A stretch of DNA of 64,000 nt from an uncultured Verrucomicrobiota bacterium. GTDB taxonomy: Bacteria > Verrucomicrobiota > Verrucomicrobiia > Limisphaerales > UBA9464. The notes under the pieces are model-generated. The model did not search any database. It worked only from the letters and a program-made list of their open reading frames with translations, and had not been told where the DNA came from. The stretch covers positions 1 through 64,000 of the forward strand of contig CAJAHH010000031.1 of NCBI GenBank assembly GCA_903939515.1, written 5' to 3'. Below, in pieces: positions 6,262 through 42,287 of the stretch (position 1 is the first letter of the stretch; each line of letters opens with the position of its first letter). Position numbers and translations under genes: made by a program.

Positions 6262-7330
6262 AGATCACCACCTTGAATTTTTCGCCCTTGGCGATGGACA
6301 GCGCGAAGCCGGCCATCAGCTCGGGGATAAATTCCAGGTCCTTGAGGTTCACCATCTCCACCGGTGAGTGCATGTAGCGGTTGGGCAGGCTGATGAGCCC
6401 GCTGGGGATCCCGCCGCGGGTCCAGAAGATCACATCGGTATCCGTGCCGCTGGTGGCGCTCATGGCCTCATGCTGCAACGGGATCTTCTTTTTCGCGGCG
6501 ACGTCTTCGAGGCGCTGGATGACGGCCGGATGGTTGCAGCCGCCGTGTGTCAATGCGGGGCCGCTACCGAGCTTGATATCGCCATGGGCACGCTGGTCCA
6601 CGGTGGGGTAGTCCGTGGCGTGGGTGACATCCACCACCAGGGCGGTCTCCGGATTGAGCGAGTAGGCAATTTGCCGGGCTCCGAGCAGGCCGACCTCTTC
6701 CTGCACGTTGGCCACGGCGCAGACTTCGACATTCAGCTTCTTAACCAGGGGTTTGAGCAACCGGAGCGTCTCGGCGACAGCGAAGGTACCGATGCGATTG
6801 TCGAAGGCGCGTGCGACAGCCAAATCGCCGCGCAGCATCTCAAAGCGGTCATTCAGCGTGATCGGGTCACCGATGCGCACCAGCTTCAGTGCGGCGTCCT
6901 TGGAGGCGACACCGATGTCGATGAAGAGTTCGTGGATCTTGGGGGCTTTGGGCTCGCTGTCGCCGCGGGTGAGGTGCGGGGCGACGTTGCCGACGACGCC
7001 AAGAACGGGACCTTGCCGGGTGTGGATGGTGACCCGCTGGGCCTTGGTGATGGCCGGGTCGATACCGCCGGTTCTGCGGACATGAATAAACCCCTCTGCG
7101 GTGATGAAGTTCACCGACATGGCGATTTCATCGGCGTGGGCGGCAAGCATGAGTCGGGGGCCGCCACCCTTGTTGAGCACCGCCACGCAGTTCCCGTAGG
7201 CATCGGAGAAGGTTTCATCGGCGTAAGTGCCGGCGTAGTCCATCCAAACGCGCAGACCGCGCGTCTCATGTCCGACGGGACTGGGGGTGTTGACGAGGGT
7301 TTCCAGGAAGGTCAGCGATTGCGAACGCAT
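6260..7330 (-). CDS. M42 family metallopeptidase (glutamyl/deblocking aminopeptidase-like)
   Basis: This 356-residue cytosolic enzyme is of typical family length. It has the M42 zinc-site motifs: LAAHADEIAM (first metal His), ARAFDNRIG (bridging Asp), NVQEEVGLLGAR (catalytic Glu-Glu), VVDVTHATD (metal Asp), and a late HEAMSATSGTDTD segment. The family forms dodecameric shells that trim peptides from the N terminus. It is convergent with the ABC-F gene. The start at 7330 gives MRSQSLTFLETLVNTPSPVG, with the usual LxxLxxxPSPVG opening. Confidence 0.93.
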   Translation of the reverse strand: MRSQSLTFLETLVNTPSPVGHETRGLRVWMDYAGTYADETFSDAYGNCVAVLNKGGGPRLMLAAHADEIAMSVNFITAEGFIHVRRTGGIDPAITKAQRVTIHTRQGPVLGVVGNVAPHLTRGDSEPKAPKIHELFIDIGVASKDAALKLVRIGDPITLNDRFEMLRGDLAVARAFDNRIGTFAVAETLRLLKPLVKKLNVEVCAVANVQEEVGLLGARQIAYSLNPETALVVDVTHATDYPTVDQRAHGDIKLGSGPALTHGGCNHPAVIQRLEDVAAKKKIPLQHEAMSATSGTDTDVIFWTRGGIPSGLISLPNRYMHSPVEMVNLKDLEFIPELMAGFALSIAKGEKFKVVI

Positions 7331-7391
7331 ACCTCGGGAGTTTGCCTCAGGTGACAGGGGGTGCCAAGGGGGACCCGTGATCTGTCCACGG

Positions 7392-8135
7392 TCAGTGACT
7401 TGTCGTGTCGGGCTGCCGCCGGAAGCGATTTTCTAGGAGGAGGCGCCAAACCATCCACGCCGCCTCGATGGCGATGTCTCGTGACATCTTTGAGACACCC
7501 TGCTCCCGATCGGTAAAGATGATGGGAACCTCGGCGATCTTGAGGCCTCGACGCCAAATGCGATGGGTCAGTTCGATTTGGAAACTGTAGCCGTTGGCTG
7601 TGACCGAACTGACATCGATGGCCGCCAACGTCTCCCGTCGGAAGCATTTGAAGCCTCCGGTCGGGTCGCTGAAGGGCATGCCGGTGATCATTCGGGTGTA
7701 GAAGCCGCCCCAGAGGGAGAGCAGCAGTCGGGGCAGCGGCCAATTGATGACGCGAATGCCGCCCGAGTAGCGTGAACCCAGCACCAAATCTGCCTTCTGT
7801 TCCTGGGCCGTTTGGAGAAAGCGGGGGATGTCTGCCGGATTGTGGGAGAAGTCGGCATCCATCTCGAAGATGAACTGATAATCCCGGCTCAAGGCCCACT
7901 GAAACCCTGCCACATAGGCGCGACCCAGACCATCCTTCACCGTGCGGTGCAGCACATGAACCCAAGGGTTTTTCGAAGCCAACTCATCGGCGATCTGGCC
8001 GGTGCCGTCGGGTGAGTTGTCGTCCACCACTAGCAAATCGACCGGCACGGGCAGCGAGCCAAGTCGGCGGACCAACTCGGGCAGGTTTTCCCGCTCGTTG
8101 TAGGTCGGTACGATGATGAGCGTCTCGGCCGGCAT
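7392..8135 (-). CDS. Polyprenol-phosphate mannosyl/glycosyltransferase, GT2 (Dpm1-like)
   Basis: This 247-residue GT2 glycosyltransferase resembles dolichol-phosphate mannose synthase. It has IIVPTYNERENLPELV at the N terminus, VVDDNSPDGT (nucleotide-binding Asp), and FEMDADFSHNP (DxD-like metal site, about residues 90-100). A later GSRYSGG and a TGGFKCFRRETL segment follow. It lacks the C-terminal membrane helices of the long form and probably works peripherally on a polyprenol phosphate, making an activated sugar for envelope glycans. The sugar donor cannot be told from sequence alone. It is divergent from the glycosylasparaginase gene, 110 bp away. Confidence 0.9.
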   Translation of the reverse strand: MPAETLIIVPTYNERENLPELVRRLGSLPVPVDLLVVDDNSPDGTGQIADELASKNPWVHVLHRTVKDGLGRAYVAGFQWALSRDYQFIFEMDADFSHNPADIPRFLQTAQEQKADLVLGSRYSGGIRVINWPLPRLLLSLWGGFYTRMITGMPFSDPTGGFKCFRRETLAAIDVSSVTANGYSFQIELTHRIWRRGLKIAEVPIIFTDREQGVSKMSRDIAIEAAWMVWRLLLENRFRRQPDTTSH

Positions 8136-8245
8136 AAGTCTTCGCAGTCAATGTAACGGTCCATGATGGCTCTGAACAAATGCGAAATTCCAAGACTTGC
8201 CTCCGGATGCTTGCATCGGAGCGTTTCTTGGGGAGCCTTTGGTCC

Positions 8246-9268
8246 ATGAAGATTCCTCGTAGGGCATTCGTGGGCTCATCACTGGCGGCCATCGCGGGCG
8301 GTCGGCTCAATGCCGCCAATTCGAAGTCGGGTCCGAAAGTTCGTCGGGAGGCGGATGCTCGAGCCAAGCCGCCCTTGGTCATTTCAACCTGGCCCTTCGG
8401 CAAGCCTGCCAACGACCGCACTCTAGAGGTGTTTCGTTCTGGAAAATCTGGCTTGGACGCCGTGGAGCAGGGGGTGCGATTGGCTGAGGACGACCTTTCC
8501 AATTCGAGCGTGGGTCTTGGAGGGATTCCCGCGGCTCATGGTGTGGTCCAGTTGGACGCCTGCATCATGTCCGGTCCGGGACATAAGGCTGGATCGGTGG
8601 CTGCGGTCGAAGGATTCAAGCACCCGGTCTCCATCGCGCGCCGCGTCATGGAGGAAACCCGCCATGTGATGCTGGTGGGCGAGGGGGCTCAGCGGTTCGC
8701 CCGTGAGCGAAAGTTTGAGGAAGGACCCGCGGTCACGCCGGGCCAGAAGGCAGCCTGGGAAAACTGGAAGAAGGCGCAGGAGGCTGAGAAGGCCAAGATA
8801 CCGAACCACGACACCATCGCTCTTCTTATGCTGAGTCCGTCGGGTGATATCTTTGGGGCGTGTTCCACCTCAGGGTGGGGTTACAAGATTCAGGGTCGGG
8901 TGGGCGATTCACCCATCATCGGTGGCGGGCTTTACGTGGACAACGCGGTGGGCGGCGCTGGCGCCACCGGCATTGGTGAGAACGTGATGCGCTATTGCGG
9001 CTCGTTCTTGGTGGTGGAGTTCATGCGCCAGGGAATGTCTCCCACGGAGGCCTGCCTCGCCACGTTGCACCGGATTGCTTCCATGGACCCCAAGGGCTAC
9101 GACCTCAGCATTAACTTCATCGCCCTCGACAAGCGGGGGCGTTTCGGTGCGGCGGGTACCGGTCAGGGTTTCCAATATTCGGTGGCCTGCGACGACTACA
9201 GCAAGGTGCTGCAAAGTCCGGGTGTTACCCAGAAGCCGGTCGGGCCCCTGGGCGGCAATCGTCTTTAA
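8246..9268 (+). CDS. N4-(beta-N-acetylglucosaminyl)-L-asparaginase (glycosylasparaginase)
   Basis: This is a 340-residue N-terminal-nucleophile hydrolase of the lysosomal glycosylasparaginase family, which cleaves the GlcNAc-Asn bond of N-glycopeptides. The first 25 residues (MKIPRRAFVGSSLAAIAGG) look like a Tat-type export signal. The autocleavage site is seen at NHDTIALL, which would expose a catalytic Thr (about residue 191). The glycine-rich substrate region GWGYKIQGRVGDSPIIG and the AVGGAGATGIGE loop are present. ATG 8246 is preferred because the leader begins there; the frame is open from 8180. A role in scavenging glycopeptides outside the cytoplasm is inference. Confidence 0.9.
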   Translation: MKIPRRAFVGSSLAAIAGGRLNAANSKSGPKVRREADARAKPPLVISTWPFGKPANDRTLEVFRSGKSGLDAVEQGVRLAEDDLSNSSVGLGGIPAAHGVVQLDACIMSGPGHKAGSVAAVEGFKHPVSIARRVMEETRHVMLVGEGAQRFARERKFEEGPAVTPGQKAAWENWKKAQEAEKAKIPNHDTIALLMLSPSGDIFGACSTSGWGYKIQGRVGDSPIIGGGLYVDNAVGGAGATGIGENVMRYCGSFLVVEFMRQGMSPTEACLATLHRIASMDPKGYDLSINFIALDKRGRFGAAGTGQGFQYSVACDDYSKVLQSPGVTQKPVGPLGGNRL

Positions 9269-9311
9269 TCGAGCGGTGGCGGATCTGGTTGGCGGCTCGA
9301 GTGGCGGCCGG

Positions 9312-10523
9312 TCACTTTGAACCGGCGGGCAAAGCCACCTGACCGGGCCGGCTCAGGTAATAAAGGAGATCCCGGGTCTGCTGTTCGGTGAGGTTGGCGA
9401 TGAGGCCTTCGGGCATCATTGAGATGGCCGTGGCCTCGATTTTGCGAATCTCCGAGCGGGGCAGTGTAACCAGTTCGTTGGCCGTCTGCAGGGTGATCCC
9501 ACTCGCGTCCTGGGACTTGATCATGCCGGTGAGCACCCGCTCGTCCTTCGTCTCGATGGTCGAGGCCAGGTACTCGTTGGGGATCACTGCGTTGGGGTAG
9601 AGGATATTCTGGAGCAGGTAGTCGAGATCGGCGCGATTGGCCCCGGTGATGTCCGGACCAACAGCGCCACCACTGTCAAAGAGGTGGTGGCACTGGGCGC
9701 AAATTTGATTAAAGACCACGCGACCCCGGGGGCCGTCGCCGGGTTGAGATCCACCGGCCCCGTAGAGTCGTTTCACCCGTTCCACCTCGGCCTTCATGTC
9801 CGGGCTGGTTTCTTTCATCACCCCCCAGATCTGAGTCAGGTCGCTCGCCAAGGTGGGGTCTTTGAGTGAGCGCAATTGGCGAACGAGGTCTGCAGTCAAG
9901 GCGGCCTTCGGAACCGAGCCTCCACGGACGGCCTCCACCAGGGGGCGGGCGTAGGTGGATCGAGAGGCGAGCGTGTTCAGGGCGTCCCGCTGTTCGGTAG
10001 CAGTGAATTGTGAGAATCCGGCCAGGAGCACGGAGGGGGTCTTGGCATCGTCAAACCCGGCCAGGCCGCGCAGCGCGGTGGCCCGGATGCCGGGTTCGGT
10101 GGTGAGCTTTTGGAGGAGGGGCACCAGGGCTGCGTCTCGGGTTCGGAGCAGGGTCTCCAAGGCTGCGGCGCGGTCCGCGGAGGCGGCGTTGGAATCCGAG
10201 GCGATGGCGCGCAGAGAATTTAAGGCTCGGGCACTTCCGAAGACGGTCCCCAGATTTCGGGCCAATCGCTGGGTCTCCGCGTCGGGGGCTGCGGCCAGTA
10301 TGGACTCCAACTCGTTCCACCCGGTTGGAGCAGTCACTCCGTTACGTCCGCGTAGGGCGGCCTCCATGCCTCGCAGCACATCCAGTCGAAGGGTGATGTC
10401 GGGCGTGGTCGCCGCCAGGGCTGTCAGGCGGTCGAGGGGCCCCTCGGCCAAGAGCACGGAAGACAACAGGCTCAAGGCCAGCGTCCAGAGGCACCCGTTC
10501 CGAAACCATTGCGTGGATTTCAC
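9312..10523 (-). CDS. Secreted HEAT-like protein with Planctomycete-type heme-binding C-terminal domain
   Basis: This 403-residue protein has a Sec signal peptide (ending near SSVLLAEG). Residues about 30-260 hold alpha-helical HEAT-like repeats (TALRGLAGFDD and RAAALETLLRTRDAALVPLLQ). The C-terminal domain of about 130 residues is the c-heme module common in Planctomycetes and Verrucomicrobia: GRVVFNQICAQCHHLF (CxxCH), GPDITGANR, LLQNILYPNAVIPNEY and late MMPEGL, with a YYLSRP end. It is a likely periplasmic cytochrome-like electron carrier or an accessory to a dehydrogenase. The usual N-terminal PVC dehydrogenase propeller is absent here. Confidence 0.85.
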   Translation of the reverse strand: MKSTQWFRNGCLWTLALSLLSSVLLAEGPLDRLTALAATTPDITLRLDVLRGMEAALRGRNGVTAPTGWNELESILAAAPDAETQRLARNLGTVFGSARALNSLRAIASDSNAASADRAAALETLLRTRDAALVPLLQKLTTEPGIRATALRGLAGFDDAKTPSVLLAGFSQFTATEQRDALNTLASRSTYARPLVEAVRGGSVPKAALTADLVRQLRSLKDPTLASDLTQIWGVMKETSPDMKAEVERVKRLYGAGGSQPGDGPRGRVVFNQICAQCHHLFDSGGAVGPDITGANRADLDYLLQNILYPNAVIPNEYLASTIETKDERVLTGMIKSQDASGITLQTANELVTLPRSEIRKIEATAISMMPEGLIANLTEQQTRDLLYYLSRPGQVALPAGSK

Positions 10524-10672
10524 GCCGGTAAGGCTACGCAGGAGCCGGAGGGCAGCAAGCTGTCGTTGACCTCAAACATCGTTTGGGGCTTTGGCGGTTG
10601 GGTGTCTTTGATCTGCCGAGGGGGAAATACTCATTGCACCTACCAACTGTGCTGTGCCTAAGTTTCGCGCCT

Positions 10673-10694
10673 TTCCGGGGGAAAACCCCGGGAA
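10673..10694 (+). other. Strong hairpin in the acylphosphatase leader
   Basis: TTCCGGGG and CCCCGGGAA pair with one bulged base around a GAAAA loop, 30 bases upstream of the acylphosphatase start. No run of T follows, so it does not resemble an intrinsic terminator; a role in mRNA stability or translation is possible. The rest of the interval 10524-10723 shows nothing else that I recognise. Confidence 0.4.
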
Positions 10695-10723
10695 TGGTGG
10701 GTTTCACGACGTTGGGGATATTC

Positions 10724-11002
10724 ATGAAGCGCTGGCGCATGCAAGTCTTGTACTTAGGTCGGGTACAAGGCGTGGGTTTTCGCTATCAGACGAAACGGCA
10801 GGCGACGGGCTTCGAGGTATCAGGAACGGTGCGGAACTTGCTGGATGGACGTGTAGAATTGATCGCCGAGGGCGAGCGGTCCGAGTTGGAAGAATTTCGG
10901 AAGGCAATCCGTGAGTGCGGGTTGGGTCCGATGATTCGTAACGAGGACGTGACATGGACCGAGGCCACGGGCGGTTTCCGGGGTTTCGAGATCGTGCGGT
11001 AA
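10724..11002 (+). CDS. Acylphosphatase
   Basis: This 92-residue protein hydrolyses carboxyl-phosphate bonds. It shows the family signature GRVQGVGFRYQTKRQA, with the catalytic Arg of the phosphate cradle in the GVGFR loop, then GTVRNLLDGRVELIAEG with the catalytic Asn. The C-terminal GFRGFEIVR strand completes the alpha/beta sandwich. Length is the family norm. ATG 10724 is chosen because homology begins at MKRWRMQVLYLG; the longer frame from 10583 crosses the leader hairpin. The metallophosphoesterase gene starts 6 bp after its stop, so the two are probably co-transcribed. Confidence 0.94.
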   Translation: MKRWRMQVLYLGRVQGVGFRYQTKRQATGFEVSGTVRNLLDGRVELIAEGERSELEEFRKAIRECGLGPMIRNEDVTWTEATGGFRGFEIVR

Positions 11003-11008
11003 ACGAGA

Positions 11009-11731
11009 ATGAGGTACGCCATTATAGCTGACATCCATGGGAACCTAGAAGGTTTCCAGCGGGTGCTTGCCGACATCCAGGAACAGAAGTGTACCCATGT
11101 CGTGTGTCTGGGCGATGTCGTCGGATATGGCGCCAACCCGAAGGAGTGTCTCGACATCGTACGCGGGATGAACATCCCCACGGTCAAGGGCAACCATGAC
11201 GAATACATCGGCCTCGATGAAGACCCTGAGGGGTTCAATGACGCCGCGGCCGAGGCGGTGGCTTGGAGCCGTTCCCAATTGACGGCGGACGACCGCAAGT
11301 GGTTGAGGGAACTCAAGTATTTCCGTTTGGTGGCCAATTTTTCCATCGTCCATGCGACCTTGGATGGCCCCCAGCGATGGGGTTACGTGTTCGAGAAGCT
11401 GGAGGCGGCCGCGAGCTTCACCTACCAGAACACCCAGTTGTGCTTCTTCGGTCACACTCACGTGCCGGTGGCCTTCATTCGTGATACCGGAGTGCGCGGT
11501 GGTCAGTACTCGAAACTGAAGATCGAACCCGGTCGCAAGTATTTCATTAACGTGGGCAGCGTCGGTCAGCCGCGTGACGGCGACCCTCGTGCGGCCTACG
11601 TGGTGTACGATTTCCCGACTCAGACCGTGGAGCTGCGTCGCCTCGAATACGACATTCCAACGACCCAGAAGAAGATTTTGGACGCGGGACTCCCGCCTCG
11701 ATTGGCTCACCGCTTGGCAACCGGCCGCTGA
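11009..11731 (+). CDS. Calcineurin-like metallophosphoesterase (YfcE/MJ0936-type)
   Basis: This 240-residue cytosolic phosphoesterase has all the dinuclear metal motifs: IIADIHGN (residues 4-11), CLGDVVGYG, VKGNHDEY and FFGHTHVP (about 150). Between blocks 3 and 4 a helical segment holds a further His (IVHATL). The family includes low-specificity phosphodiesterases; the substrate is not predictable. It follows the acylphosphatase by 6 bp and is probably in one transcript with it. Confidence 0.92.
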   Translation: MRYAIIADIHGNLEGFQRVLADIQEQKCTHVVCLGDVVGYGANPKECLDIVRGMNIPTVKGNHDEYIGLDEDPEGFNDAAAEAVAWSRSQLTADDRKWLRELKYFRLVANFSIVHATLDGPQRWGYVFEKLEAAASFTYQNTQLCFFGHTHVPVAFIRDTGVRGGQYSKLKIEPGRKYFINVGSVGQPRDGDPRAAYVVYDFPTQTVELRRLEYDIPTTQKKILDAGLPPRLAHRLATGR

Positions 11732-11790
11732 GTTTTTTTGGGCAGGTTTTGCGGGTGAGCTGTTCGATTAAAGCAGTTTGCATTCAGGTT

Positions 11791-11845
11791 CGCAAAGGGG
11801 TCGCGAAGGGGTCGCAAAGGGGTCACTAACGGCTCGCAAAAGGCT
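11791..11845. repeat. Five 11-bp direct repeats upstream of the GT9 gene
   Basis: The motif CGCAAAGGGGT occurs at 11791-11801 and 11813-11823, with close variants at 11802-11812 (CGCGAAGGGGT), 11824-11834 and 11835-11845. The period is exactly 11 bases, about one helical turn. The block ends just before the start region of the glycosyltransferase gene. It could be an operator array or simple slippage-derived repeats. Confidence 0.6.
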
Positions 11846-11878
11846 CCGGTGGTTTATGGTCTGGGTTCCTGTGGTCGC

Positions 11879-12913
11879 GTGAAGATCCTCATCCTCAAGC
11901 CAAGTTCCCTGGGAGACATCATCCACGCACTTCCCGTGCTGCGGCTCCTGCGGCTTGAGTTTCCGGAGGCCCAGATAGATTGGTGGATTCTCCGTGGGCT
12001 GATGCCTCTTCTCGAGGGCGATCCCGATTTGCGTCGTCTCGTTCCCTTCGACCGGAAAGATTGGGCCAAGCCGCGTCATTGGCCCTCGGTGTTTCGCCTG
12101 GTGCGCCAGCTCCGATCGGAGCGCTACGACTGGATCCTGGACCTCCAAGGCCTGGCCCGCTCAGCGTTGTTTGGCCGGGCGTGTGCCAGTGCTGGTGCTC
12201 GGTATGTCGGGGTGCGGGACTGGCGAGAATTAGCCCCGTTATTCCAGGGCGAATCAGTGCCTCGGCCTTCGCCACAAGCCCATGCTGTGGATTGGCAGCG
12301 GGCCTTGTTGACACATCTGGGAGTGCCTCTGCGCACCGGTTGGGAATGGATTCCTCGTCGGCAGGCGGCGGCGGAGCGCTTGAGGCAGGAGTTTGCCGAG
12401 TTAAACCAGGGTCGCTGGATCGGTCTTCAACCGGGGGCGCGCTGGGACAACAAGCGGTGGCCGGTGGCTCGGTTTGTGGAACTCATGGGTCTTTTGTCGC
12501 GATCCCACCCGGGGCATCGGATCGCTATTTTTGGAGGGCCTGACGACTTAGCCCTGGGTCGGGCTCTGGCGTCGGCCGATCCGGGGCGCTGTTTGGATTT
12601 GACGGGTCGCCTGACCTTACCAGGCATGATCGAGGCCTTGCGCTGTGTGGACCTTTTGGTGACCAACGACACGGGCCCGATGCATGTGGCCGCGGCCTTG
12701 GGCAAGCCGGTGGTGGCGGTGTTCGGTCCGACGGATCCTTCCAGGACCGGTCCCTATGGCCAGGTGGAGTTCGTCCTTCGGGCTCCGCAACCGCCGGCGT
12801 GTGCCCCCTGTTTAAAGCCCGTTTGCCGTTACTCGGAACCGCTGGCTTGCCTGAATCGGATCACAGCCGCCCAGGTGGCTGTGGCCGTGGCCGGTCGTTT
12901 GGCTGCAGAGTGA
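11879..12913 (+). CDS. Glycosyltransferase family 9 (LPS heptosyltransferase-like)
   Basis: This 344-residue GT-B enzyme opens with KILILKPSSLGDIIHALPVL, the GT9 N-terminal signature. It carries the C-terminal donor-site block LVTNDTGPMHVAAALGKPVV followed by FGPTDPSRTGPYG. Family members add heptose to lipopolysaccharide core from ADP-heptose, so a Gram-negative-type outer membrane is implied. GTG 11879 gives a start right at the beta strand; ATG 11849 adds ten unlikely residues and is the alternative. The C-terminal region has Cys residues (CAPCLKPVCRY) seen in many GT9 proteins. Confidence 0.9.
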   Translation: MKILILKPSSLGDIIHALPVLRLLRLEFPEAQIDWWILRGLMPLLEGDPDLRRLVPFDRKDWAKPRHWPSVFRLVRQLRSERYDWILDLQGLARSALFGRACASAGARYVGVRDWRELAPLFQGESVPRPSPQAHAVDWQRALLTHLGVPLRTGWEWIPRRQAAAERLRQEFAELNQGRWIGLQPGARWDNKRWPVARFVELMGLLSRSHPGHRIAIFGGPDDLALGRALASADPGRCLDLTGRLTLPGMIEALRCVDLLVTNDTGPMHVAAALGKPVVAVFGPTDPSRTGPYGQVEFVLRAPQPPACAPCLKPVCRYSEPLACLNRITAAQVAVAVAGRLAAE

Positions 12914-12964
12914 GGGATTTCCAGAACGGTCTTCGACTTAGGTTTCAGGGCCGTTGCTGAGGGA

Positions 12965-14167
12965 TTACTCCGTCAAGGCGGCGTCCCAGTCTTTCCACAC
13001 GGGTTCGTAGCCTAGGCGGCGGATCACGTCGGCCACATCGGAGGGCGAGCGGTCGTCGGCAATGTCGAACTGGCCGGTGGCGTTGGTGGCGCGTCCCTGG
13101 GTGGCTTTCCATTCGGGCGAATCGGGCGCCAGTGCTTCGATGCGTCCGCGTACTGTGTGGTGGATGGCGTCCTTGCCGGCTCCTGTATAGCCGCCGGGTT
13201 CGGTGTGGCTGCCAGCGCTGGCGTGGGTGATGCCCAAGGGCAGGAGGCCGTCGCGCAACGGGGCAGGTTCGCGGGTGGAGAGCACCAGGCCGACGTCGGG
13301 CAAAAACAGCCGCAGCGCGGTGATCACCTGGACGAGGTCGCGATCTTTAAATCCGGTGAGGGGCTGGAATTCACCGGCGCAGGGGCGAATCCGCGGGAGC
13401 GAGACAGTGACTTGTGCTTTCCAGCAGTGCTTGAGCAGCCAGGCGGCGTGGGCGGCCACGGAGATGGCTTCTTGGCGCCAGTCGGCCAGACCGTACAAGG
13501 CTCCGATGCCGAGGCGGCGGAATCCGGCCAAATAAGCCCGCTCGGGTGTGGCTAGTCGCCAGTCGAAATCGCGTTTGGGACCGAGTGTGTGCATTTGAGC
13601 GTACACGTTCCGGTCATAGGTCTCTTGGTACACGACCAATCCTTCGGCGCCGGCCTGAACCAGCGGATAGTAGTCGGCGGTCTCCATCGGCCCGACCTCC
13701 AGCGACAGAGAAGGGATAAAGGAGTGGAGGGTTCGAATACATCCGGCCATGTAACCGTTGGAGACGAACTTGGGGTGCTCTCCGGCCACTAGTAGGATAT
13801 TGCGAAAGCCGTGGCCGGCCAAAGCCAGGGCTTCTCGTTTCACTTCTTGTTCGGCGAGGGTGACCCGGAGGATAGGGTTATCGCGGGAAAAGCCGCAGTA
13901 AGCGCAGTTGTTAATGCACTCGTTGCTGAGGTACAGCGGTGCGAAGAGTCGGATGGTCTTTCCGAACCGTTGGCGGGTGAGGGCTTGGGACCGTCGGCAC
14001 AGTTCCTCCAATCGAGTGGCGGCCTCCGGTGAGAGCAGGGTGGCAAAATCACTGACCGACGACGGGCCGCGCCGGAGTACCGAGTCTACTTGCTCGGTAT
14101 TCGACGACCGGGCCTGACTCATCAAACCCTCTAAAGGCAAGGCATCGAAGGCCTCGACGAAACTCAT
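12965..14167 (-). CDS. thiH: 2-iminoacetate synthase ThiH
   Basis: This 400-residue radical SAM enzyme cleaves tyrosine to dehydroglycine (2-iminoacetate) for the thiazole half of thiamine. The cluster motif is CINNCAYCGF (CxxxCxxC). Family segments RLFAPLYLSNE, LLVAGEHPKFV, VYQETYDRNVY and SLPRIRPCAG are all present. ATG 14167 (MSFVEAFDALPLEG) fits the family length of about 380-400. The frame is open a further 113 codons upstream, but only because two palindromic repeats there lack stops. No other thiamine gene is in the window, so thiH stands apart from thiG/thiS here. Confidence 0.93.
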   Translation of the reverse strand: MSFVEAFDALPLEGLMSQARSSNTEQVDSVLRRGPSSVSDFATLLSPEAATRLEELCRRSQALTRQRFGKTIRLFAPLYLSNECINNCAYCGFSRDNPILRVTLAEQEVKREALALAGHGFRNILLVAGEHPKFVSNGYMAGCIRTLHSFIPSLSLEVGPMETADYYPLVQAGAEGLVVYQETYDRNVYAQMHTLGPKRDFDWRLATPERAYLAGFRRLGIGALYGLADWRQEAISVAAHAAWLLKHCWKAQVTVSLPRIRPCAGEFQPLTGFKDRDLVQVITALRLFLPDVGLVLSTREPAPLRDGLLPLGITHASAGSHTEPGGYTGAGKDAIHHTVRGRIEALAPDSPEWKATQGRATNATGQFDIADDRSPSDVADVIRRLGYEPVWKDWDAALTE

Positions 14168-14207
14168 GTCGGGCGACCATAGCTGTGGAGTCTCCGCAGG
14201 CAAGCGG

Positions 14208-14334
14208 GCGCTCCGCGGGACCGGGCCTTCGCTCGCAGGGAACGTTGGGACAGGTGGGGCTTTCGCGCTGTCGCGCGGGGGGGGATTTAGGGTGTCGACG
14301 TTCCTACGCTCGCTCCGACCCGGTCCCGCTCCGC
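14208..14334 (+). repeat. Palindromic element, copy 1
   Basis: This element of about 127 bp opens GCTCCGCGGGACCGGGCC and closes near GACCCGGTCCCGCTCCGC, so its ends are inverted. Inner blocks CTCGCAGGGAACGT and ACGTTCCTACGCTCGCTC also pair. A central small hairpin (CGCGCTGTCGCGCG) follows GAGCTTT/GGGCTTT. It sits 40 bp upstream of the thiH start and is tandem with copy 2 at a 144-bp period. The rest of 14168-14593 holds no gene that I can support. Confidence 0.9.
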
Positions 14335-14351
14335 TTGACGTATTTGGTGGG

Positions 14352-14475
14352 GCGCTCCGCGGGACCGGGCCTGCGCTCGCAGGGAACGTTGGGACAGGAG
14401 GAGCTTTCGCGCTGTCGCGCGGGGGGGGATTTAGGGTGTCGACGTTCCTACGCTCGCTCCGGCCCGGTCCCGCGG
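14352..14475 (+). repeat. Palindromic element, copy 2
   Basis: It is nearly identical to copy 1, with the same order of arms, GGAACGT / ACGTTCC inner pair and central CGCGCTGTCGCGCG hairpin. The outer arms CGGGACCGGGCC and GGCCCGGTCCCG are perfect reverse complements. Confidence 0.92.
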
Positions 14476-14593
14476 CTGCCTTGGGGTGCATCACGGTGGA
14501 TGCCATGCTTTGTCCTAACGCGCCTGCCTTGGGCTAATATTGGGTCCGGATTCCTTGAGGTCTCCTGGTCGGAGGGGAGGATTTAGAAAAGCG

Positions 14594-22524: not shown

Positions 22525-22527
22525 TTG

Positions 22528-22657
22528 GGCTCCGCGGGATCAGGCGCTCCGCTCGCAGGTAAGCTCGGGCAAGGATGAGCTTTCGCGCTATGCGCGAGGG
22601 GTTGTGGTGATCGCTTCCAATGCTCGCTTCGGCCCGATCCCGCTCCGCTGCGGTTTT
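22528..22657 (+). repeat. Palindromic element, copy 3 (variant with GTGATCGCTTCC)
   Basis: It starts 4 bases after the DUF1552 stop codon. Ends GGCTCCGCGGGATCAGGC and GGCCCGATCCCGCTCCGC pair imperfectly. Instead of the GGAACGT/ACGTTCC pair this variant has GGTAAGCTCGGGC and GTGATCGCTTCCAATGCTCG. The central CGCGCTATGCGCG hairpin is kept. Confidence 0.88.
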
Positions 22658-22662
22658 GGGTG

Positions 22663-22796
22663 GGCTCCGCAGGATCAGGCGCTCCGCTCGCAGGTAAGCT
22701 CGAACAAGGAAGAGCTTTTGCGCTGTGCGCGAGGGGGTGAGGGTGATCGCTTCCAATGCTTGCTTCGGCCCGACCCCGCTACGCTGCGGTTTTGGA
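22663..22796 (+). repeat. Palindromic element, copy 4
   Basis: This is the same variant as copy 3, in direct tandem with it (about 135-bp period). It has GGCTCCGCAGGATCAGGC at the left, GCGCTGTGCGC in the centre and GGCCCGACCCCGCTACGC at the right. Confidence 0.88.
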
Positions 22797-22798
22797 AG

Positions 22799-22926
22799 GG
22801 CTCCGCAGGATCAGTCCGCGCTCGCAGGGAACGTTGGGACAGGAGGGGCTTTCCAGCGCTATCGCGCTGGGGGGACTAGGATGTCGACGTTCCTATGCTC
22901 GCCGCGGACTGATCCCGCTCCGCTGC
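22799..22926 (+). repeat. Palindromic element, copy 5
   Basis: It belongs to the GGAACGT/ACGTTCC subtype of copies 1-2. The left arm GGATCAGTCCGCGCTCGC matches the right arm GCCGCGGACTGATCC, so both arms have changed together while keeping their pairing. It has a central AGCGCTATCGCGCT hairpin. It runs straight into the 37-bp motif at 22927. Confidence 0.88.
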
Positions 22927-22963
22927 GGGGTCGGTCCCACCTATTTACACAAAAGGGGACACT
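22927..22963 (-). repeat. 37-bp motif, copy 1
   Basis: This is a perfect reverse complement of bases 42103-42139, 19 kb away (37 of 37 by hand comparison). Its core is CTATTTACACAAAA, bounded by GTCCC and GGGAC, which can pair. It joins palindromic copies 5 and 6. Confidence 0.92.
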
Positions 22964-22989
22964 CCTTACTATACAGCTGCCGTTGCGAT

Positions 22990-23143
22990 GGCTCCGCAGA
23001 ACCGGGCCTGCACTCGCAGGGAACGTGGGGACAGGGGGAGCTTTCGCGCTGGCGCGCGAGGGGGAATAGGGTGTTCACGTTCCAATGCTCGCTTCGGCCC
23101 GGTCCCGCTGCCGCTTGGGGTTCCCCTCCGCTGCGGGTTTTGA
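22990..23143 (+). repeat. Palindromic element, copy 6
   Basis: It opens GGCTCCGCAGAACCGGGCC after GTTGCGATG and carries GGAACGTGGGGACAGG, the hairpin CGCGCTGGCGCGCG, then CACGTTCCAATGCTCGC and GGCCCGGTCCCGCTGCCG. The rest of 23144-23240 is GC-rich with no gene recognised. The whole interval 22525-23240 is therefore repeat DNA. Confidence 0.88.
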
Positions 23144-28335: not shown

Positions 28336-28478
28336 GGCTCCGCCTGCGTACTTTTTGTTGGGGATGGGTCCTGCGCTCGCAGGGAACGTGGGGATAGATG
28401 GGGCTTTCGCGCTGGCGCACGAGGGGGCTTAGGTGTGTGGACGTTCCAATGCTTGCTCCGGCCCCATCCCGCTCCGCC
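28336..28478 (+). repeat. Palindromic element, copy 7, with flanking direct repeat
   Basis: GGGATGGGTCCTGCGCTCGC pairs with the right-arm GCTTGCTCCGGCCCCATCCC; GGAACGT and ACGTTCC are kept, and the centre is CGCGCTGGCGCAC. A direct repeat of about 38 bp beginning GCTCCGCCTGCGTACTTTTT occurs at both 28337 and 28471. The following 28510-28780 has no supported gene. Confidence 0.88.
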
Positions 28479-28518
28479 TGCGTACTTTTTGTTGGGGATG
28501 GGTCCTGCTGCCGCCTTC

Positions 28519-28531: not shown

Positions 28532-28785
28532 CTACCTGTTACAAAAATGTGTGAATTTCGCCCGCAAAACATCGACTTTGGTACGCGTTGGTATTCGTTC
28601 GGAATTGCGGATTTCTGATGCGGTCGTTGCGTTGAAGATTCATTCTTATCGCATTAAGCCGGAATCGGAATGACGCCTCATTACACCCTTGCTCGTTGCT
28701 CAACAGCGACGGACACGCTCTGTGGATTCGGTGCGAGCGATCGGTGATGCGCGAGAATCCGCGATCGAGAACTCATGACTTGCAC

Positions 28786-29415
28786 GTGAACAAGAAGGCG
28801 CTTTCCGAAACCGACATCCGTTCCAAGTTCATCACTCCGGCCCTTTGCGGTCCGGAGGGAGCGGGCTGGGATCTGATGACCCAGGTTCGGGAGGAGGCCT
28901 ATTTCACCAAAGGTCGAGTGATTGTCCGCGGCAAGACAGTCCAGCGCGGCGAGGCGAAGAAGGCAGATTACCTGCTTTACTACAAACCGAACCTTCCCAT
29001 CGCCGTCATCGAGGCGAAGGACAACCGACATGCCGTTGGCGACGGTATCCAGCAGGCTCTCGAATACGCAGAGATTCTGGACGTTCCATTTGCCGATAGT
29101 TGCAATGGCGATGCGTTCCTAGAGCACGATCGCACGGCCGCCAGCGGCACGGTGACCCGCGAGATTCTGCTCGATCAGTTTCCGTCGCCGGCGCAGTTGT
29201 GGTCGCGTTTCTGCGCTGCCAAGGGGCTCACGTCGACGCAGGTCGCGGTCACGACTCAGGATTATTACGACGACGGTTCTCGGAAATCACCGCGCTACTA
29301 CCATCTCATCGCCATCAACCGCACGGTCGAGGCCATCGCGCTCTTCGGAGGCAAACCTGCCTATCTAGCCGCCCTCCGCGATCTGGAAACGGCCCTGTAT
29401 CAGGAAGCCGCCTGA
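28786..29415 (+). pseudogene. hsdR: Truncated type I restriction enzyme subunit HsdR (N-terminal domain only)
   Basis: About 185 residues match the N-terminal nuclease domain of HsdR: KALSETDIRSKFITPALCGP, VIVRGKTVQRGEAKKADYLL and IAVIEAKDNRHAVGDGIQQA (the D...ExK catalytic cluster). They continue through QDYYDDGSRKSPRYYHLIAI to NRTVEAIA at about 29340. In intact HsdR the helicase Walker A region follows. Here the frame instead ends after 24 further residues, LFGGKPAYLAALRDLETALY plus QEAA. That tail could be the 3' end of another gene, perhaps hsdS, fused by an internal deletion (inference). The start is GTG 28786 or ATG 28747. The helicase motor is absent, so no restriction activity is expected. 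Confidence 0.85.
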
Positions 29416-29418
29416 ACC

Positions 29419-30168
29419 ATGGCTGAACTCGTGGAACACAGCGACTACCTCGTGTTCGTCGATGAAAGCGGCGATCATCACCTCACGCGCATCGATCCTC
29501 AGTTCCCGGTGTTCGTGCTGCTCTTTGCGATCCTCCGCAAAGACGACTACGTCGAAAAAGTCTGCCCGGCCCTCTCTCGTTTTAAATTCCAGTTCTGGGG
29601 GCACGACGAGGTGGTGTTGCACGAGCACGACATCCGCAAACCCTCCGGCGACTTTCTGTTCCTACTCCAGAAACCATTGAGGGAACGTTTTCTCGCCCAG
29701 TTGAGCGCACAGATGGAGGCCTTGCCTGCCACTGTGGTCGCCGTGGTGATCGACAAGCCGTCCTTCGCCTCCCGATATAGCGCGCCCGCCAACCCCTACG
29801 ACTACGCCATGGAACTGGGACTGGAACGTACCCATCGACACTTGGCCTCCTTGGGGAAGCCTCGGCATCGGACCGCCATCATTGTCGAGAAGCGCGGTCG
29901 TCGCGAGGATGCCGACCTGGAATTGGCCTTCCGGCGCGTCTGTGATGGCGCCAACGCCTTGAACCAACGCCTCCCGTTTGATTTGGTGATGATTCCGAAA
30001 TCCTCCAATTCCGCCGGCCTTCAACTCACCGACCTGATGGCTCGGCCGGTGGCACTCCATCACCTGCGACCGGATCAACCCAATCGTGCCTTCGAGATCA
30101 TCCAGACCAAGTTTCGCCGCAATCCGGCGGGGCAATACGAGGGCTGGGGCTTGAAGCGACTGCCCTAA
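29419..30168 (+). CDS. DUF3800 domain protein
   Basis: This 249-residue protein has the DUF3800 hallmarks: YLVFVDESGDHHLT at the N terminus (RNase H-like acidic residues), then HDIRKPSGDF, VVAVVIDKPSF, IIVEKRGRREDADLE and a C-terminal LQLTDLMARPVALHH with the closing Asp. DUF3800 genes are common passengers of type I restriction operons, and a nuclease-like fold is suspected for the family. It begins 3 bp after the hsdR remnant and is followed by the hsdM remnant. Unlike them it has no visible lesion, so it may still be made. Confidence 0.85.
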   Translation: MAELVEHSDYLVFVDESGDHHLTRIDPQFPVFVLLFAILRKDDYVEKVCPALSRFKFQFWGHDEVVLHEHDIRKPSGDFLFLLQKPLRERFLAQLSAQMEALPATVVAVVIDKPSFASRYSAPANPYDYAMELGLERTHRHLASLGKPRHRTAIIVEKRGRREDADLELAFRRVCDGANALNQRLPFDLVMIPKSSNSAGLQLTDLMARPVALHHLRPDQPNRAFEIIQTKFRRNPAGQYEGWGLKRLP

Positions 30169-30280
30169 AATGCGAAGGGCCTCCGGGAAATCCCAGAAGC
30201 CCAGCGCCGACCGGAAATTTCCAGTCCAACTTAAAATTAGATTTACTCCCGCCACACTGTTCGTCAATCCGATTTGCCCC

Positions 30281-30601
30281 ATGCCCAACGTCTCCAACCT
30301 CATCAAGACCATCCAGGATATCATGCGCAAAGATGCTGGTGTCGATGGCGATGCTTAGCGACTTGCTCAGCTCGGCTGGATGTTCTTCCTGAAAATCTTC
30401 GATGATCGTAAAAAGGGGATGGAAGTCCTGCGCGACAACTACAAATCCCCGCTTCCAAACGAACTCCGCTGATCCAACTGGGCCACCGATGAAGAAGGCA
30501 TCACCGGGGACGCTCTGCTCGCCTTTGCCAACAACGACCTGCTGCCTAGGTTGAAAGTCCTCTACGGCACTGGCGACATTGTTACGCTCATCAAAGCCGC
30601 C
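30281..30601 (+). pseudogene. hsdM: hsdM (type I methyltransferase) 5' fragment with two in-frame stops
   Basis: From ATG 30281 the frame reads as the HsdM N-terminal helical domain (NLIKTIQDIMRKDAGVDGDA, then RLAQLGWMFFLKIFDD). Two stops interrupt it: TAG at 30356-30358, where the family has Gln (CAG), and TGA at 30470-30472, where Trp (TGG) is expected before SNWATDEEGITGDALLAF. Both fit single transitions. Similarity stops at about 30560-30600 and the catalytic domain is missing. A phoD-like fragment begins at once after it on the other strand. Confidence 0.85.
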
Positions 30602-30676
30602 TTCGACGAGGAAGGATTGGCGGACGGTGGTGCGGCCACCGGGTTTGAGGATGTCTTCGACGGCGATGTGCTCGCT
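30602..30676 (-). pseudogene. 3' fragment of a PhoD-like phosphatase gene
   Basis: These 75 bases match 34187-34261, in the 3' part of the intact phoD-like gene, with about 66 identities by hand. On the minus strand they read SEHIAVEDILKPGGRTTVRQ and SFLVEGG, close to the intact gene's YIAVEDILKPGGHTTIRK and SFLVESG. No other part of a phosphatase is present. It is a gene end left behind by recombination, either from a paralogue or from a foreign copy. Confidence 0.75.
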
Positions 30677-30698
30677 CTGCCCGGTCTCGCTGCTGCCT

Positions 30699-30711
30699 TG
30701 GGGTGGCCAGG
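30699..30711 (+). repeat. 13-bp direct repeat flanking the restriction remnant, right
   Basis: TGGGGTGGCCAGG is the second copy of the left-hand repeat at 28519-28531. It is preceded by CCCGGTCTCGCTGCTGCC, which resembles the right end of the palindromic elements, as the left copy does. Confidence 0.55.
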
Positions 30712-30825
30712 TTGGGACGCGGTCTTGGGTTTCGGCATCGAGCCGAGGGTGGGTGGACGTTCAATGCGTCCGATGAATCAACGGCATCGGCAGACTTGGG
30801 ATTTGTGCCAGCGGTCTTCGTCGTC

Positions 30826-34156: not shown

Positions 34157-35764
34157 TCACACCGCCTGTGCGCCGGGTTTGCCCGATTCGACGAGGAAGG
34201 ACTTCCGGATGGTGGTGTGGCCGCCGGGTTTGAGAATGTCTTCGACGGCGATGTAGTCGCTGCGCCACGACTTCGGGGTGACGGTGCAACGCACGTAGCC
34301 GCGCTCGCGGTTGAAGAAGCGGACGCAGGGGTTTATCGACTGGAGTTTTGCCGTCGCTTCGGGGTTGTCCTTGCCGTTGCCGCCGCTGGTGATGCTGCTG
34401 CCAACAAATTCGGTGGCGATGACGGGGGTCTCAGGCTTGCGGTCGTCGATGCGCAGGTCGTTGACCCAGTTGGAGTGGATGTCGCCGGTGAGGACGATGG
34501 GGTTGGGGATGCGGCGGTCGGCCCAAAAACGGGCAAGGGCCATGCGCTCGTGGGCGGCACCGGGCCACTGGTCCATGGAGTAGATGGGCTCGGGGTCCTT
34601 GGCGGTGCCGGGGAAGGCCACCAAGCCCATCATGACTTGCTGGGCGAGTACGTTCCAGTGGGCTTGCGAGGCGATGAGACTGCGGTCCATCCAGTTGCGC
34701 TGTTCGGCTCCGAGCAGGGAGTTGCGCGGGTCGAGCGCGGCGGCGTTGAGGGGCTTGTTGTTGTCGCCGTTGGGCTGGTCGGTGCGGTACTGGCGGGTGT
34801 CGAGCACGAGGAACTCGGCCAGGCGTCCAAAGCTGGCCTTGCGGTAGAGTTGGAGGTGGGGCCCTTGTGGCAGGCAAGAAGCCCTCAGTGGCATGGCTTC
34901 GTAGTAGGCCTGGTAGGCGGCGGCCCGTTGAATGAGGAAGTCGGCCGGATTGACGGTGCTGACCTCGGAAATACCGGCGGCGTAGTTGTTGTCGAACTCG
35001 TGGTCATCCCAGGTGACGAACCACGGGCAACGCCGATGCATTTCCTGGAGGTGCCGGTCGGAACGGTAGAGGGCGTGGCGGCCGCGGTAGTCTTCGAGGG
35101 TGATGATGCGGGTCTTGGTGGGCCCGGTGTGGCGGCGGACCTTTTTGTCCTTGGCGGGGCCTTCGTAAATGTAGTCGCCGAGGTGGAAGACGAGATCCGG
35201 TTCATCTTGGGCCATGCGCTCATAGGCCGTGTAGTGGCCGTCTTCGTAATGCTGGCACGAGGCGAAGGCGAAACGCAGTTCGCTCGGCAGCGACTCCGGC
35301 TCGGGCAAGGTGCGGGTGCGCCCGATGGGGCTAGTGGCCGGGCCGGCGTGGAACCGGTACCAGTAGTGACGCCCGGGTTTGAGGCCGGCGACTTCGACAT
35401 GCACTGAATGGCCGAGCTGGGGCAGGGCGAGGGTGGTCCCGCGCTGGATGATCCGCGACATGGACTCGGTTTCGGAAAGTTCCCAGCGAACGGGGATGCG
35501 TTCGGTGGTCAAGCCGTAGCCGGGCTCGAGCGGCTTGGGGCAGAGGCGGGTCCAGAGCACGACGCTGTGGGCCTCCGGATCACCGCTGGCGACGCCCAGT
35601 TGGAAGGGGTCAGCTGCGAACGAGATCTTGGAGTCGGTCGTGCCCGCGGACCGGGCAGCGATCGCCGGCAACGCCGCCAGGGCCGCACCGTAGGCGACGA
35701 AGAGGCGACGGCTGAGTCCGCCCTCGTGGCAGACGGCTTGCGGGAGACGTTCGAGCAGGGACAT
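34157..35764 (-). CDS. phoD: PhoD-like alkaline phosphatase/phosphodiesterase
   Basis: This 535-residue Tat-type exported enzyme (SRRLFVAYGAALAALPAIAA) has a PhoD N-terminal domain (FQLGVASGDPEAHSVVLWTR). The metallophosphatase core contains FASCQHYEDG, LVFHLGDYIYEGPA, VTWDDHEFDNNYA and VLTGDIHSNWV. Family members cleave phosphomonoesters and diesters with Ca/Fe and serve phosphate scavenging. ATG 35764 (MSLLERLPQAV) is taken as start; ATG 35803 is also open. A phoB-phoR pair lies 3 kb away, so Pho-type regulation is plausible, though no Pho box was confirmed. Confidence 0.92.
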   Translation of the reverse strand: MSLLERLPQAVCHEGGLSRRLFVAYGAALAALPAIAARSAGTTDSKISFAADPFQLGVASGDPEAHSVVLWTRLCPKPLEPGYGLTTERIPVRWELSETESMSRIIQRGTTLALPQLGHSVHVEVAGLKPGRHYWYRFHAGPATSPIGRTRTLPEPESLPSELRFAFASCQHYEDGHYTAYERMAQDEPDLVFHLGDYIYEGPAKDKKVRRHTGPTKTRIITLEDYRGRHALYRSDRHLQEMHRRCPWFVTWDDHEFDNNYAAGISEVSTVNPADFLIQRAAAYQAYYEAMPLRASCLPQGPHLQLYRKASFGRLAEFLVLDTRQYRTDQPNGDNNKPLNAAALDPRNSLLGAEQRNWMDRSLIASQAHWNVLAQQVMMGLVAFPGTAKDPEPIYSMDQWPGAAHERMALARFWADRRIPNPIVLTGDIHSNWVNDLRIDDRKPETPVIATEFVGSSITSGGNGKDNPEATAKLQSINPCVRFFNRERGYVRCTVTPKSWRSDYIAVEDILKPGGHTTIRKSFLVESGKPGAQAV

Positions 35765-41863: not shown

Positions 41864-41918
41864 CCCGTTCAGAGTCGGCGCTCTGCAAACTCCGACCTCG
41901 CAGCGGGCGGCATCGGGC

Positions 41919-42041
41919 AGCAGCGGGATTGGGCCGCAGTGAGCATCGGAACGTCAGCCTCCCAGCCCCCCTCGCGCGTCAGTGCGAAAGCGACTCCTGC
42001 CCCCACGTTCCCTGCGGGCGCAGGACCGATCCCGCGGAGCC
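41919..42041 (-). repeat. Palindromic element, copy 8 (inverted orientation)
   Basis: Read on the minus strand it opens GGCTCCGCGGGATCGGTCC, has GGGAACGTGGGGGCAGG, a central hairpin, GACGTTCCGATGCTCACTG and GGCCCAATCCCGCTGCTGC. Orientation is opposite to copies 1-7. The interval 41864-42408 has no gene apart from repeats. Confidence 0.88.
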
Positions 42042-42102
42042 CTCCCCGAGGCACCAACCCCGGGCGCAAGCCTCAGAAAGTCTCCTGCAGGTAATATGTT
42101 GT

Positions 42103-42139
42103 AGTGTCCCCTTTTGTGTAAATAGGTGGGACCGACCCC
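42103..42139 (+). repeat. 37-bp motif, copy 2
   Basis: This is identical, in reverse orientation, to bases 22927-22963. It lies between palindromic copies 8 and 9 and is directly followed by a second GGTCGCC/GGTCCC-like stretch. Confidence 0.92.
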
Positions 42140-42164
42140 AAGGCGACCGACCCCCAGGCGATTC

Positions 42165-42287
42165 GAGCGGAGCGGTGTCGGGCCGTAGCGAGCCTTGGAG
42201 GCGAACACCCTCACCCCTCGCGCAAAGCGCGAAAGATCATCCTCCCCAGAGCCTACTCAGCGAGCGGAGGCCCGATACCGCGGAGCC
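42165..42287 (-). repeat. Palindromic element, copy 9 (inverted orientation)
   Basis: On the minus strand it starts GTTGCGATGGCTCCGCGG, as copy 6 does. It keeps CTTTCGCGCTTTGCGCGA in the centre and GTTCGCCTCCAAGGCTCGC to the right, the GTGATCGCTTCC-type variant of copies 3-4. Confidence 0.87.

Follow-up and report, generated by a model that had tools for sequence, protein, structure and literature searches.

The type I restriction-modification systems of the EcoAI/FtnUII family (NF046051) are the closest described counterparts of the locus presented here, which lies in a 64,000-nucleotide stretch of DNA (the window) from an uncultured Verrucomicrobiota bacterium. The likeness covers the N-terminal part of hsdR in the window and, in an intact relative (locus L002), the whole of HsdR (1182 bits), HsdM and HsdS, whereas the window copy has no hsdS, little of hsdM and an HsdR without motor or helical domain. 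A decayed locus of a related kind is described in Staphylococcus epidermidis, for example in strain ATCC 12228, where hsdR is truncated and non-functional and another subunit is lacking, a state reported for 64 isolates of the species (PMC6918075). The two loci are alike in having a shortened hsdR and a missing subunit, but in S. epidermidis hsdS is complete and hsdM absent, whereas in the window the middle of hsdR is missing in frame and both ends persist, hsdM is reduced to a stub, and hsdS is gone.

The gene that follows hsdR in the window encodes a DUF3800 protein (PF12686; 51.1 bits against a Pfam cut-off of 21). An RNase H fold is reported for the DUF3800 protein beside Cas12a2 (PMC10910872), and the best fold matches of the window protein are likewise to RNases HII, H2 and H3, although its gene lies between hsdR and hsdM and has no CRISPR context. 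RNA motifs associated with DUF3800 genes have also been named already, including RF02969 (DUF3800-I) and RF02968 (DUF3800-IX) in PMC11701678.

The window locus and its intact relative

Contigs were scanned with the neighbouring DUF3800 protein as the query, which gave 34 related loci. An intact operon had been expected to exist in relatives, and the nearest locus that has one, L002 (DUF3800 identity 96%), is complete at the same site with the same flanks as the window; its HsdR scores 1181.7 bits against the NF046051 cut-off of 550, and phoD follows hsdS on the other strand. At the same site, a further relative (G396) has an intact hsdR as far as the end of its contig, and a congener (G400) has no restriction-modification genes, the sequences that match window positions 28506 and 30670 lying about 72 nt apart. 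DUF3800 is present in three of 19 genomes of the genus, namely those of the window and G391, which carry the deletion, and G393, the source of L002, where the operon is intact.

Read from the GTG at 28786, the shortened hsdR frame encodes 209 residues (the mechanically called ORF starts at 28696). Residues 1–185 are those of an HsdR, with matches to the NCBIfam EcoAI/FtnUII HsdR profile (219 bits over positions 1–174 of 768, below the cut-off of 550), to PDB 3h1t (E 4e-36) and to PADLOC REase_I (252 bits, positions 4–184 of 807), and with 97% identity to residues 21–205 of the intact, 815-residue HsdR of L002. As originally predicted, the likeness runs to NRTVEAIA and then stops, at a point equivalent to residue 205 of L002 HsdR. 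The accompanying claim that the break falls exactly before the helicase domain is close but not exact: the break precedes Walker A (ATGTGKT, L002 residues 216–222) by 10 residues, but because Pfam ResIII starts at residue 187, about 19 residues of the start of that domain are retained. The motor is missing, as is almost the whole EcoEI_R_C domain (L002 residues 657–811), and an HsdR with its nuclease and two RecA-like motor domains was not found at the window locus, where the counterpart of L002 residues 206–791 is absent.

In the window hsdM breaks off near 30606, about 108 codons in, and is fused to a 3' fragment of phoD; an intact HsdM was not found at the locus, where the query matches over its residues 1–149 only and the matched part contains a TGA and a TAG. 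L002 10160–14314, comprising the rest of hsdM, DUF1016 and hsdS, has no match in the window. Neither was an HsdS found at the window locus, and the one Methylase_S match in the same genome is outside the window, on contig C100. Downstream of junction 2 there is a PQQ-repeat gene and then a complete phoD. The restriction-modification site of the window has mutL on one chromosomal flank and PQQ/phoD on the other.

Table 1. Features of the window locus, with the L002 operon for reference (L002 in its own coordinates)
Feature	Coordinates	Strand	Remarks
Dispersed repeat, left edge of remnant	28337..28508		
hsdR remnant	28786..29415	+	Counterpart of L002 HsdR residues 21-205 fused in frame to that of residues 792-815
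Deletion junction 1	29336..29339	+	Ends share TCGC; 1,758 bp of the L002 sequence absent
DUF3800 gene	29419..30168	+	Frame open, 249 aa; fold predicted to be RNase HII-like
Two-hairpin RNA-like element	30169..30233	-	Conserved, ~65 nt, reads toward DUF3800 stop codon
TTGAC, promoter -35-like	30263..30267	-	34 nt before RNA model start
hsdM 5' remnant	30281..30606	+	TAG at 30356, TGA at 30470
phoD 3' end, 81-bp copy	30596..30676	-	Complete phoD at 34157
Junction 2	30602..30606	+	TTCGA common to hsdM and phoD 3' end (L002 as ancestor proxy)
L002 operon	hsdR 6550-8997, DUF3800 9001-9750, hsdM 9752-11320, DUF1016/YhcG nuclease gene, hsdS 12462-14159		

We regard the locus, with high confidence, as what decay has left of an EcoAI-family type I operon of the kind seen in L002 (hsdR-DUF3800-hsdM-DUF1016-hsdS). 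An ancestor with the L002 gene order would have occupied this same site, and the deletions may have arisen by illegitimate recombination at the shared TCGC and TTCGA, which as short matches are insufficient alone to prove a mechanism. Restriction activity would be absent from the product, and the 209-residue protein, if made, would be a residual nuclease domain that has no motor and makes no contact with a methylase. Still intact at the window locus are the DUF3800 gene and, behind it on the opposite strand, the RNA-like element. The hsdR deletion is an ordinary snapshot of the death of a restriction operon, and the adjacent element matters more.

Service of the truncated HsdR by the type I system that the same genome encodes on C100 (one N6_Mtase match and one Methylase_S match) was considered and set aside, the motor being gone. 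This methylase/specificity pair lies at 10283–12717 of that contig, with one TAG in the methylase match. The repeat that borders the remnant on its left belongs to a dispersed family of about 110–300 bp that is found at 14207–14510, 22526–23121, 28337–28508 and 41916–42287 of the window and in relatives too.

History of the deletions and selection on the hsdR remnant

Both junctions are common to the window and L015 (genome G391), which are sisters in a tree of the hsdR N-terminal part (support 0.94). The lesions in their hsdM remnants differ: the window has the TAG and TGA, whereas L015 has a different TAG and has lost 1 bp. The L015 DUF3800 gene is frameshifted by a 2-bp insertion. The shared deletions came first, and the differing hsdM lesions followed in the two lineages.

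On the branches to the window and to L015, the N-terminal part of hsdR has 11 synonymous and 12 nonsynonymous substitutions; the L002 side, which takes in the stem, has 18 and 2, respectively (Fisher p 0.004). Two of the window changes, Y104D and Q173H in remnant numbering, fall at positions that are Y/F and Q, respectively, in 8 of 8 aligned intact homologues. By these comparisons the hsdR remnant shows relaxed selection.

A shortened protein that is a functional mini-nuclease under selection, with or without DUF3800, would fit a frame that has stayed open in both genomes through the deletion and later mutations, the continued recognition of HSDR_N by Pfam (26 bits, cut-off 25.1), and the excess of synonymous changes on the L015 branch (10 of 18, above neutral, p 0.02 with kappa 4). 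We nevertheless consider this improbable, since the nonsynonymous load is higher after the deletion and conserved residues have changed, the motor and nearly all of EcoEI_R_C are gone, hsdM is cut, and the rest of the L002 operon is without a match in the window. Neutrality is borderline when both branches are pooled (p 0.054) and the window branch alone gives p 0.83; with 23 differences no stop is expected 46% of the time, and a deletion stays in frame one time in three.

Returning to the decayed operon that we favor, dS between the window and L015 is 0.07–0.09 in hsdR, DUF3800 and the PQQ gene, as against 0.20 in mutL and 0.22 in a 159-aa ORF. With these lower values at the remnant, the allele may have passed from one species to the other with its deletion already in place, in which case it was not inherited by descent. 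The hsdM remnant differs from L002 at 25.6% of positions (82/320) compared with 4.5% for hsdR, so L002 is a mere proxy for the lost part. Divergence from L002 leaps from about 2–6% over hsdR, DUF3800 and the element to 26–30% just past the element (window 30234–30606), as if an allele exchange had happened at that point. Independent erosion is seen in two other loci, both with an intact DUF3800: L009 (1846–2643) retains only HsdR residues 21–97, 633–667 and 671–814 before it, and L006 (9838–9948) only hsdM residues 38–74 beside it.

The 24-residue tail and deletion junction 1

After the break the frame does end in a 24-residue tail, and the original prediction suggested that this may be the 3' end of a gene such as an hsdS formerly ahead of DUF3800, reached by a single deletion out of hsdR. 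A single internal deletion indeed formed the ORF, in that one stretch of 1,758 bp (586 codons, residues 206–791) is missing in frame relative to L002, with the left and right L002 matches overlapping by TCGC. The tail, however, is identical at 24 of 24 positions to the last 24 residues (792–815) of L002 HsdR, a natural and intact protein, and it is 59–100% identical to the end of the ORF immediately 5' of DUF3800 in 11 further loci (100% in L015, and 59–92% in L003–L007, L010, L011 and L016–L018, at the end of HsdR or of the ORF before DUF3800). Given this identity and its recurrence, the tail is, by sequence, the C-terminus of HsdR itself and comes from no hsdS; the tail alone gave no match in Pfam or NCBIfam at E≤1.

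The operon order hsdR-hsdS-DUF3800-hsdM that had been supposed is also not that of L002, in which no hsdS stands ahead of DUF3800 and hsdS is the last gene of the operon. Methylase_S genes do lie immediately 5' of DUF3800 at two of the 17 upstream neighbors scanned in distant loci (L045 and L032, with DUF3800 identities of 35% and 48%), and the hsdS-DUF3800 order thus occurs in nature, but outside this lineage. We give an hsdS origin of the tail practically no credence, as it is ruled out by the match to HsdR C-termini. An assembly artefact or chimera can be dismissed with equal firmness: the window's own assembly is in 160 contigs and 29 of the 34 related loci come from metagenome-assembled genomes (judged by their titles), but identical junctions are present in L015, an independent assembly of another genome that is 94.3% identical to the window over 9.2 kb and differs from it elsewhere, so the break is not an effect of chance or base calling.

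The DUF3800 protein

An AlphaFold2 model of the window DUF3800 protein (pLDDT 94.3) has 1eke_B as its top fold match (Z 11.1, rmsd 3.4, 167 residues aligned), and the 16 best fold matches are all RNases HII, H2 or H3 (Z 9.3–11.1, rmsd 3.1–3.9, 148–167 aligned). These are above the background of the tool and cover most of the domain, and an RNase H-like fold is predicted. Among 37 DUF3800 sequences 22 columns are invariant, including D15, E16, E157, E163, D164 and D205, and the protein appears nuclease-like, with a putative activity. On the two branches that lead to the window and to L015, 12 of 20 substitutions in its gene are synonymous (neutrality test, p 0.005), but the L015 copy is frameshifted, and these branches do not differ from the L002 side (Fisher p 0.35). 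DUF3800 is optional in these operons, because in genome G390 hsdM follows hsdR directly; this system (L125, on contig C25) has a related hsdR (56%), hsdM and hsdS, with neither DUF3800 nor the element between hsdR and hsdM.

A two-hairpin RNA-like element behind DUF3800

Directly past the DUF3800 stop codon, the minus strand folds into two hairpins of 7 and 11 bp. The folding z-score in the window is -5.4 for the minus strand and -3.5 for the plus strand, and in all six loci for which both strands were folded, the one opposite DUF3800 gives the better score. An element on the plus strand was rejected, as a first alignment gave only 5 pairs and the minus strand folds far better. Standard pairs make up 99.3% of the pair cells in an alignment of 24 distinct sequences, and double-sided changes occur at 10 of 18 pairs, with 49 such cells compared with 12.7 ± 3.0 in shuffled alignments and at most 5 in slid ones. 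A structured, covarying element thus adjoins DUF3800, as is characteristic of a DUF3800-associated RNA. Between the window and L002 it differs at 1 of 65 positions, and the next 47 nt differ at 14.

The region upstream of the element was compared in 45 sequences (the 44 matched loci except L026 and L052, plus L129, L132 and L151), and 21 of them have TTGAC at -29, -33 or -34 relative to the model start, compared with a shuffle mean of 0.76 and a maximum of 5. This count overstates the support, since the sequences share ancestry and the interval (-46 to -28) was picked after viewing them; the shuffles preserve base composition only. The 3' end of the element is terminator-like, and we read the element as a putative gene for a small RNA, with a promoter of its own and a terminator-like end.

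Relation to known RNA families and a possible module

The Rfam 15 DUF3800 families gave no match at E≤5 in window 29300–30800, where the sole Rfam match is mir-2 (17.2 bits, E 4.6), in the hsdM remnant away from the element. Nor did they match at the gathering score in 11 loci, at E≤2 in 10 loci or at E≤1 in 5 plasmid loci. BjrC68 aligns over the element in L037, L158 and L156 (27.2, 21.0 and 20.6 bits) and was rejected against its gathering score of 39; these weak matches may reflect a common hairpin-plus-terminator layout.

Weinberg et al. reportedly described DUF3800 RNA motifs in 2017. The element resembles the DUF3800-associated motifs in being conserved and structured and in adjoining a DUF3800 gene, and differs in being without a match to the Rfam 15 DUF3800 families in the stretches searched. 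As DUF3800-associated RNAs are already known, the element is probably another of them, and a new one in the sense that it is set apart from the Rfam 15 families only.

It is conceivable, and we put it forward tentatively, that DUF3800 and the ~65-nt element are a self-contained two-part module, in which an RNase H-like protein and a two-hairpin RNA with its own promoter stand tail to tail, the RNA ending at the DUF3800 stop. The module would be an optional cassette in restriction-modification operons (here between hsdR and hsdM, and absent from the related G390 system), found also on plasmids and in phages, and the protein would work with the RNA or be restrained by it, forming a defence or addiction unit that RNA either directs or neutralises. 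If this is true, it would account for DUF3800 outlasting the restriction-modification genes around it. The element is a concrete candidate RNA partner for DUF3800, a function-unknown domain with an RNase H-like fold, in named hosts: the pair is carried by Methylorubrum extorquens DM4 p2METDI, Bradyrhizobium elkanii pUSDA94-1 and Pseudomonas phage JBD68.

Distribution of the element

The RNA model matches 44 of 54 DUF3800 sources at full length, 25 of which were used to build it. In 43 of the 44, the element and the end of the DUF3800 frame overlap or are no more than 26 nt apart; in L052 the distance is 135 nt. The ten sources without an RNA match are L032–L034, L048–L051 and L053–L055, of which L032 and L033 have a DUF3800 match that reaches the contig end and L034 has a short DUF3800 fragment. 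The element stands beside DUF3800 on all five plasmids examined out of 49 plasmid records with DUF3800 (42.8–71.8 bits), and in both phages examined out of four records (JBD68, 56.5 bits; Pkon1, 21.1 bits).

In a phylum sample of 387 genomes, the element is matched in 23 (at 28 places) and DUF3800 in 20. A DUF3800 profile match is present in the locus at 15 of the 28 places, two of these being fragments, and the other 13 have none in a locus of about 3 kb, 10 of them with element scores of 30.6 bits or less. Strong matches without DUF3800 are found at L129 (1501–1565, 78 bits), immediately behind a subtilase frame, and at L132 and L151, both in genome G157 (61 and 43 bits); these copies are possibly solo or mobile. 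In a viral scan the DNA pattern was present in 21 contigs, of which R1 gave 3 above 30 bits. The JBD68 locus (L182, 3004–3714) encodes gp43, annotated as hypothetical and 45.5% identical to the window DUF3800, with the element behind it and gp44 adjoining.
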